Shown here in pieces: positions 12,214 through 13,345 of a stretch of 33,274 nucleotides of DNA; within the stretch, counting starts at the first letter, position 1; each line of letters opens with the position of its first letter. The stretch is from positions 1 to 33,274 of the forward strand of contig CANQPX010000020.1 in assembly GCA_947625915.1 (NCBI GenBank), in the 5' to 3' direction. Origin of the DNA: an uncultured Clostridia bacterium (lineage in GTDB: Bacteria; Bacillota; Clostridia; Oscillospirales; Ruminococcaceae). The notes below the pieces were generated by a model. That model was not told the DNA's origin. It ran no database searches and was given only the letters and a program-made list of their open reading frames with translations. Both the position numbers and the translations under genes were made by a program.

Positions 12214-12250
12214 AGCGGTACCAACGCGTTCTTGCGTTGATACCGTTAAT
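12214..12250. terminator. Bidirectional terminator
   Basis: CGGTACCAACGC (12216-12227) pairs with GCGTTGATACCG (12234-12245) around a 6-base loop. TTAATTTT follows on the plus strand and CTTTTTAT on the minus strand. It separates the binding-protein gene from the convergent Rpn-tail ORF. Confidence 0.85.
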
Positions 12251-12252
12251 TT

Positions 12253-12429
12253 TCAGACGGGCATTAAGTTGTAGTCTTTTGCCAGTTCTGTCACTTCTTC
12301 AACGGTAAGATTACAGCATTCAGCAATCTCATCAAAAGAAAACTTGCCTTTTTTTAACATATTTAATGCTATTACAGCATCTTCCATTTTTCGGGTTTCG
12401 ATCATGGCTTCTTCCATAGATTTACACAT
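12253..12429 (-). CDS. Free-standing 58-aa duplicate of the Rpn C-terminal tail (putative antitoxin-like)
   Basis: A short ORF that duplicates the 3' part of the upstream Rpn-type gene. The last 36 residues match that protein's end at 26 positions, both finishing in NLMPV. It starts MCKSMEEAM, where the large gene has MCKVMEDAM. GGAG lies 8 bases before the ATG, the same distance as the internal ribosome site in the large gene. The reading frame has stayed open with mostly conservative changes, arguing that it is translated. The sequence LKKGKFSFDEIAECCNLTVEEVTELAK looks like a small helix-turn-helix-like or dimerisation module. It begins 25 bases after the large gene's stop and ends at the bidirectional terminator. 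An antitoxin role is inferred from E. coli Rpn biology; a decaying duplication is the alternative. Confidence 0.6.
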   Translation of the reverse strand: MCKSMEEAMIETRKMEDAVIALNMLKKGKFSFDEIAECCNLTVEEVTELAKDYNLMPV

Positions 12430-12454
12430 TTCGGATTCTCCATTAGGTGTTTTT

Positions 12455-12643
12455 TCAGACAGGCATTAAGTTGTTCTCTTTTGCTACTTCTGTAACTTCT
12501 TCAAGAGTTAAACCACTGTCTTCTGCAATCTCGTCAAAAGTCAGTTTTCCTCTTTTTAACATATTTTTAGCAACATTATAAGCTTTTATCATCTCAGCCG
12601 TTTTTGCTGCTTCATTCATAGCGTCTTCCATAACTTTGCACAT
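12455..12643 (-). CDS. Candidate internal in-frame gene: C-terminal 62 aa of the Rpn protein
   Basis: Inside the Rpn gene, AAAGGAG (minus strand, 12658-12652) is followed after exactly 8 bases by an in-frame ATG at 12643. This is a much better start signal than that of the full-length gene. Translation from here would give a 62-residue protein beginning MCKVMEDAMNEA and ending NLMPV, lacking the nuclease core. In E. coli, rpn genes make a short C-terminal protein from an internal start that inhibits the full-length toxin; the layout here is the same. Expression is inferred, not shown. Confidence 0.5.
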   Translation of the reverse strand: MCKVMEDAMNEAAKTAEMIKAYNVAKNMLKRGKLTFDEIAEDSGLTLEEVTEVAKENNLMPV

Positions 12644-13285
12644 TTCAGATTCTCCTTTCGGTGTTTCTTTCAAATATCGTGTTTTCTCTGCAAGACGTTC
12701 GTTGTGCATATCCGCAGCATTGCTGCACATAAAGTCCTGCATTAATCTTCCGATTTCCGTATCGCCTTTGAACGCTCCGTTTACATACAATATGTGTTCA
12801 TCATCGTCAAAGGGCATATTCATTGCAACGTTTATACGTTCTATGGGGTATACCTCTTTGTTTCCGCCGAATACGTCGTTTTCGGTAATGAAAATAGTGT
12901 ATGTAACGGGAAGTTCTTCAAATTCCTGTCCTGCTTTCAGGTTTTCAATGTCCATGGCAGAGGAATGATACCTTGCGCGTTTCGGTGCTGCGCCGTTATC
13001 GGCTTTCTGGACTTCTATGTCGTACTTTACTCCATTGCTGTCGGTGGCATAAACGTCCAGACACAATGACCTTGCCCCTGCAAGACGTTTCATATCATAC
13101 TGAGGTTGCTCGGAAAGAAGAATTAAATCATCTTTCTGTAAGATTATGCGAAGTATCTCCTGCGCAAGGGGGAGATCGTCCTTTAACAGTACCCGCATGA
13201 AATCATCATCAATAGGGCGGAAGTTTGCCAGACGTATCAGATCTTCCTTATGCTGTTGTTCCTTGCTTTTTATGATTATCGCCAT
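12455..13285 (-). CDS. Rpn/PD-(D/E)XK nuclease-family protein (transposase-like)
   Basis: A 276-residue protein of the Rpn/PDDEXK_2 family, often annotated as 'PD-(D/E)XK nuclease family transposase'. Rpn proteins are DNA endonucleases associated with recombination and phage defence. The catalytic core is visible as Asp77 in LCLDVYA and the Glu91-x-Gln93 motif in YDIEVQKA, about 13 residues apart. The N-terminal ANFRPIDDDFMRVLL and the FITENDVFG segment are typical. The ATG at 13285 is chosen over a GTG three codons upstream; the ribosome site is weak (AAGAAAG). The C-terminal 62 residues follow an internal strong ribosome site and ATG (12643) and are duplicated downstream. A good promoter lies at 13345-13317. 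No transposon ends are seen, so 'transposase' is probably a misnomer here. Confidence 0.82.
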   Translation of the reverse strand: MAIIIKSKEQQHKEDLIRLANFRPIDDDFMRVLLKDDLPLAQEILRIILQKDDLILLSEQPQYDMKRLAGARSLCLDVYATDSNGVKYDIEVQKADNGAAPKRARYHSSAMDIENLKAGQEFEELPVTYTIFITENDVFGGNKEVYPIERINVAMNMPFDDDEHILYVNGAFKGDTEIGRLMQDFMCSNAADMHNERLAEKTRYLKETPKGESEMCKVMEDAMNEAAKTAEMIKAYNVAKNMLKRGKLTFDEIAEDSGLTLEEVTEVAKENNLMPV

Positions 13286-13316
13286 CGGTATCACTGCTTT
13301 CTTAGCTGTTATCTAC

Positions 13317-13345
13317 ATTTTACCACAAGTCTGCAAAGAAATCAA
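13317..13345 (-). promoter_or_regulatory. Promoter of the Rpn-family gene
   Basis: On the minus strand TTGATT (13345-13340), a 17-base spacer, TAAAAT (13322-13317), about 30 bases before the ATG. Confidence 0.6.

Follow-up and report, generated by a model that had tools for sequence, protein, structure and literature searches.

The intragenic products of the rpn genes of Escherichia coli (RpnS), which arise by internal initiation, are reported to be antitoxins (Zhong et al. 2023, PMC10327210). Free-standing rpnS genes have also been published in this species, as rpnE-ypaA (the small gene being rpnES) and rpnC-rpnCS, with the YpaA protein detected and the downstream copies described as clustering with their own upstream tails (PMC10327210). 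In E. coli K-12, we found that ypaA starts 12 nt after rpnE, has an identical ribosome site and matches the RpnE tail, from which YpaA differs in being longer by four residues within the helix-1 stretch and by one close to its end; the main sections of PMC10327210 contain no mention that we could find of this length difference. The RefSeq annotation treats ypaA (L183, 4817-5002) as a pseudogene, yet the ORF is intact, with a ribosome site and a published protein product.

In the window analysed here, a stretch of 33,274 nucleotides of DNA from a genome of 2.1 Mb and 89% completeness (G000), an rpn gene is likewise followed by a small ORF that has its own start and whose homology to the upstream gene begins at the internal ribosome site, as in rpnE-ypaA and rpnC-rpnCS. 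The features of the locus are listed below in window coordinates, T1 denoting the tail fused to Rpn and T2 the free-standing tail.

12455-13294, minus strand: Rpn-family nuclease gene, 279 aa, GTG start, fused tail class T1, recognised by TIGR01784 and PF12784
12455-12643, minus strand: RpnS-type ORF internal to Rpn, 62 aa, with tail T1; its ATG, at 12641-12643, has GGAG 8 nt upstream
12652-12658, minus strand: putative internal ribosome site AAAGGAG (GGAG at 12652-12655), from the window sequence and the linker-codon comparison
12430-12454, minus strand: gap of 25 nt between the Rpn stop (12455-12457) and the small-ORF ATG, with GGAG at 12438-12441
12253-12429, minus strand: free-standing tail ORF, 58 aa, ATG start, tail T2, from its translation and its homology to the Rpn tail
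12216-12245, minus strand: predicted intrinsic terminator 3' of the small ORF, 12-bp stem and T run (-20.3 kcal/mol, z -5.1)
13317-13345, minus strand: weak promoter-like site 5' of Rpn, TTGATT-17-TAAAAT, with TG preceding the second hexamer

The Rpn protein of the window scored 53.6 bits against TIGR01784 and 51.5 bits against PF12784, above the curated cut-offs of 52.1 and 27.4, respectively, and an ATG at 13285 is a possible alternative start. Residues D80, D85, and E94, which we take to be the putative catalytic acidic core of the nuclease, were invariant in 22 of 22 aligned proteins. The Rpn proteins of E. coli presumably represent the PF04754 branch, with which a search control agreed, and that of the window the PF12784 branch; a profile search of the window's genome found no PF04754 match. 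A PADLOC defence-system search returned no match, the two proteins of the window matched only a transposase-named family in PHROGs, and no entry named Rpn was among the matches of PDB sequence searches. The small ORF and Rpn are predicted to share one transcription unit, since no terminator was called between them and one was called 3' of the small ORF. Promoter-like sites in the whole stretch numbered 2, against 3.0 expected in shuffles.

Homology and the internal ribosome site

In a search of its own genome, the small-ORF stretch matched Rpn residues 209-279 with 63% identity and an E value of 6.6e-18, so the likeness is not a product of chance; at the DNA level, T2 and T1 were identical at 134 of 177 positions over the ORF (75.7%). 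The initial annotation had pointed to a 58-aa ORF with a ribosome site at the same distance as in the larger gene and to a common C-terminal end, and both hold: GGAG lies 8 nt before both ATGs, and the translations share the end NLMPV and agree at 26 of the last 36 residues. T2 corresponds to the C-terminal domain of Rpn by sequence comparison, and at the sequence level its ribosome site and start match those of the internal start. Like ypaA, it is a separate ORF on the same strand, directly downstream, carrying the ribosome site of the internal start. The proposal that the small ORF has the same extent as the internal RpnS-type gene was likewise borne out, as downstream copies start at the internal ribosome site in the window and at six more Rpn loci of this genome. 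Like the intragenic RpnS, the locus has a C-terminal helical tail that varies in length by four residues at a time, together with a putative ribosome site and start inside the gene; unlike it, the locus possesses an additional free gene, predicted to be translated.

Codon usage in the fused genes lends support to a probable internal RpnS-type start in the PF12784 branch. The codon of the linker glycine was GGA or GGG in 59 of 60 fused genes, compared with 302 of 571 glycine codons of the N-domain, and an exact GGAG occurred at this glycine in 46 of the 60, these being the fused tails, out of 81, that passed a filter for a linker glycine and an internal Met at the expected places. The associated p value of 2e-14 is too small because the genes are related; the skew itself is large. 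Among the tail ORFs adjacent to Rpn genes, 18 of 21 had a ribosome-site motif 6-11 nt before the start, the exceptions being L072, with none before the listed ATG, L073, with one only at 13-14 nt, and L182, in which both the ribosome site and the ATG have been lost. For 12 of the 21, chosen by hand, we compared the leaders with their fused counterparts: upstream linker columns agreed in 5 to 8 of 12, ribosome-site columns in 10 or 11 (one column in 6), and the spacer columns up to the ATG in 8 to 11. Because the spacer is likewise conserved, this contrast mostly marks where homology starts, and selection on the site itself is not singled out by it.

Origin and length of the free tail

The small ORF had been described as a diverged copy of the tail of this very gene, a description that the wider comparison does not bear out, since its own upstream tail ranked only 9th of 93 fused tails by protein score. 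By DNA, T2 was 84-85% identical to the fused tails of L028, L031, and L051, compared with 75.7% for T1, which was joint last of the eight best of the 13 tails compared with T2. T1, in turn, shared 95.6% DNA identity, over 228 aligned bases starting at the linker, with a tail that occupies a different site in the sister genome G019, and no tail ORF was found downstream of that G019 tail. A straightforward tandem duplication, in place, of the tail that Rpn now carries, as the annotation implied, is at odds with these DNA identities and with the protein rank and was rejected; T2 looks instead like a displaced or exchanged older tail. It differs in this respect from rpnES, because by identities and ranks it does not appear to derive from its own upstream tail, which is not its nearest relative, whereas the E. 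coli copies are reported to cluster with theirs (PMC10327210). A tree of 14 tails was weakly resolved and is not used as proof of order. In an AU test, the grouping of T1, the G019 tail, and T2 was not rejected (p-AU 0.449), and the test of T1 and T2 alone (p 1e-6) tells nothing, the G019 tail being nested with T1. As to the origin of the copy, it is also conceivable that T2 is the remnant of a second full Rpn gene: tandem Rpn genes are present at L030, but an N-terminal Rpn remnant would not fit into the 25 nt upstream of T2.

The surrounding genes allowed the site to be followed within the genus. A binding-protein gene like that of the window was present in 15 of 21 genomes and was followed by pyrH in six of those loci, the window included; of these six, the window and contig C21 of sister genome G015 carry Rpn at the syntenic site and the other four do not. 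G015:C21 has just one fused tail, and the terminator behind it matches the one 3' of T2, which suggests that T2 holds the ancestral tail-end position; T1 looks inserted before T2, either through displacement or through a duplication with later conversion. Between the Rpn stop and the end of the ribosome site, the T2 leader is identical to the last free-tail leader of G015:C36 and close to that in L030, which argues that the junction is older than one genome. The presence of the identical junction leader in G015:C36 also makes an assembly artefact at the T1-T2 junction appear unlikely.

We assigned the length-variable stretch to helix 1 following PMC10327210. It comprises 38 residues in T1 and 34 in T2, exactly four fewer, and both T2 and YpaA are one four-residue step away from their upstream tails. 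Tail lengths follow the four-residue steps of the RpnS type, with the length from the start Met to the conserved Ile being 2 mod 4 in 77 of 80 fused tails and 26 of 29 free tails. For 17 of the 21 adjacent free tails, helix length could be measured against that of their own upstream tail, and it differed by a non-zero multiple of four residues in 10 and was equal in 7. The own upstream tail was the best match for 11 of the 19 adjacent free tails that were ranked, another tail being best for 8. A length mismatch is therefore not the rule. A cognate antitoxin would have a repeat number equal to that of its target tail; T2 does not have that of the adjacent Rpn (34 and 38 residues), and in E. coli RpnC a mismatch of one added repeat is reported to have abolished neutralisation (Zhong et al. 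2023, PMC10327210).

Recurrence in the same genome and in relatives

A PF12784 search of the window's own genome recovered 13 full-length Rpn genes, that of the window and 12 more, the Rpn-bearing contigs being C1, C3, C8, C10, C12, C20, C31, C52, C55, and C58. Six of the 12 are followed by a downstream tail copy (C12:29400, C8:49082, C31:462, C10:19464, C10:22335, and C1:2516), five have none in the downstream frames inspected, and C8:54954 ends at the contig edge. Each of the six starts with the internal ribosome site and lies 0-4 nt past the Rpn stop codon. The clearest is that of C12, with 267 of 282 aligned bases identical and one 12-base insertion in the repeat region, the protein being otherwise identical from the start Met. 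The copy at C10:22335 is chimeric, its front coming from the tail of another Rpn subfamily, and those at C31 and C10:19464 are truncated or frameshifted and have lost the tail end. In four pairs of a copy and its own tail, the first 55 codons differed at 38 bases but at only one amino acid. Two of the four pairs involve truncated copies, so this ratio is in part a trace of recent conversion from fused tails under constraint. With seven loci of Rpn and free tail in one genome, five intact and two truncated, both gene birth and decay can be observed. Contig C38 of the same genome also carries two tandem tail ORFs with differing C-terminal ends (L204, 99-721), with only 98 bp before the first of them, so that an Rpn gene further upstream is possible.

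It had been suggested that T2 might act against a paralogous Rpn elsewhere in the genome. Such paralogues do exist, in the 12 further full-length genes, but they belong to other subfamilies, and those of their tails that were inspected look unlike T2, which makes them doubtful targets. No further Rpn of the window's subfamily was found in this genome (89% complete), and the search therefore yielded no resident target of the T2 class.

The search of related genomes for Rpn genes followed by short tail ORFs, which the initial annotation had called for, confirmed that the layout recurs: in a set of 104 Rpn genes, 14 further loci have it. Searches with an alignment of 22 Rpn proteins gave matches at E up to 1e-3 in 38 of 197 family genomes and at E up to 1e-6 in 26 of 297 genomes from the order; with the window Rpn as the query, 7 of 21 genomes of the genus gave matches. 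The 104 genes are a subset of these matches, each with at least 300 bp downstream. A tail ORF lay within 300 bp behind 17 of them, leaving 15 loci, the window included, once L126 (one frameshifted tail) and L182 (a near copy of L181) had been dropped. Tail-only matches at contig ends (four of G199, G145:C51, and G130:C8) were set aside. Further tail ORFs were found behind contig-truncated Rpn genes (L167 and L168) and, of another class, at L143. Eleven more were solitary, and in 10 of these 11 no N-domain remnant of the window Rpn's subfamily was found in up to 1,500 bp of upstream sequence. Three scans of viral contigs returned only L181 and L182 (IMG/VR), each an Rpn gene with a tail ORF of a different class, and solitary tails borne by phages were rejected on this result. 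The flanks of L181 (3356-4456) contain two long ORFs that by eye resemble serine recombinases.

Selection and the proposed role of the free tail

Most likely, T2 is translated into a free protein of the RpnS type and has its best partner in an Rpn other than the adjacent one. On balance we favour the reading that it is a free rpnS-type gene bearing an older or foreign tail derived by recombination, and that its best partner is probably an Rpn of matching tail class. The antitoxin role itself is one that we infer by analogy, from the likeness of layout and sequence pattern to E. coli. T2 would encode a small helical tail of the kind that serves Rpn dimerisation, the separately translated form of which would keep the nuclease inactive, and would be expressed from its own ribosome site within the predicted transcription unit of Rpn. 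An RpnS-type antitoxin would be a three-helix bundle dimer. The recombination that would have left this tail behind the current one is placed at the linker and the internal ribosome site. T2 would then bind better to an Rpn of matching tail class, either an earlier resident or a related newcomer, than to the adjacent Rpn, a preference expected because its helix 1 is one four-residue step shorter than that of the fused tail.

A possible but rather less probable reading, compatible with the one that we favour, is that free tails are retained mainly as donors for switching of the fused tail, through deletion or conversion between the repeated linkers. In its favour are the tandem genes of L030, in which the N-domains are more alike than the tails (96.5% and 72.7% identity), the arrays of two free tails at L029 and L167, and the chimeric tail ORF behind C10:22335. 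A mere donor, however, would have no use for a ribosome site, and one is retained in 18 of the 21 adjacent tail ORFs; no switching event was directly observed.

Neutral turnover, in which recombination between Rpn genes leaves decaying tail fragments, is a serious rival to a functional T2 that we nevertheless regard as unlikely. Decay is present in two of the six sibling copies of the genome, in the mobile-element copy L182 with neither ribosome site nor start, in the absent or distant ribosome sites of L072 and L073, and in the internally deleted and split Rpn genes of L051, L057, and L047. Against it, tail-only ORFs away from locus edges numbered 37, including five split or frameshifted Rpn tails (L047, L057, L087, L114, and L126), compared with about 4 to 6 loci with N-terminal fragments lacking a tail, as judged from the 24 N-only entries, the majority being full-length genes whose tails went unmatched. 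The retained ribosome-site motifs (18 of 21) also speak against it. In neutral simulations, the window ORF alone stayed open with a chance of 0.48-0.69, and all 13 simulated tail ORFs, which are not a blind sample, stayed open with a chance of 4e-4 to 1e-6. In some Rpn genes that are internally deleted, stopped, or frameshifted (L051, 384-836; L057; L047; L048), the tail is still open.

The dN/dS between tails, proposed earlier as a check, spoke less clearly. A low ratio was indeed obtained, 0.30 when the tail ORFs and their nearest fused tails were pooled (13 pairs), but the two truncated sibling copies were equally low, so that the ratio is partly inherited from the time spent as a fused tail. 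For T2 against five fused tails, pN/pS was 0.20-0.41, and between fused tails of the genus it was 0.22-0.61.

The initial annotation's selection for extra dose, in which T2 would be a second copy of the cognate antitoxin inhibiting the adjacent Rpn, is improbable: T2 and Rpn do share a predicted transcription unit and ribosome site, and adjacent tail ORFs elsewhere are often nearest to their own upstream tail (11 of 19) or equal to it in helix length (7 of 17), but here the own tail ranks 9th of 93 and helix 1 is four residues short, a one-repeat mismatch of the kind reported to destroy recognition in E. coli RpnC (PMC10327210).

If T2 is indeed a free antitoxin for an Rpn of matching tail class, a broader picture may be sketched, which we offer tentatively and hold to be well short of probable. 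Rpn loci might be arrays of tail cassettes, with the internal ribosome site as a fixed boundary at which tails undergo duplication, exchange, and displacement, and with the free tails as a memory of earlier specificities that would protect against former or incoming Rpn variants and supply later switches. Orphan immunity genes and displaced C-terminal tips are known from the Rhs and CdiA toxins. By analogy, our loci resemble them in having variable C-terminal modules behind a conserved core and leftover modules downstream; unlike Rpn, Rhs and CdiA are secreted contact toxins with separate immunity genes. With free-standing rpnS genes already known, the window case is a variant, set apart by tail exchange, arrays, and length mismatch. 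Were the picture to hold, Rpn defence nucleases would diversify through exchange of antitoxin-tail cassettes, and a cell could carry antitoxins against Rpn variants that it has already lost. Pairs of fused and free tails differing by whole four-residue steps offer a natural test set for how tail length relates to Rpn specificity. The sister genomes G015 and G019 contain 40 and 27 PF12784 matches, respectively, with more tail-only matches behind some of them.
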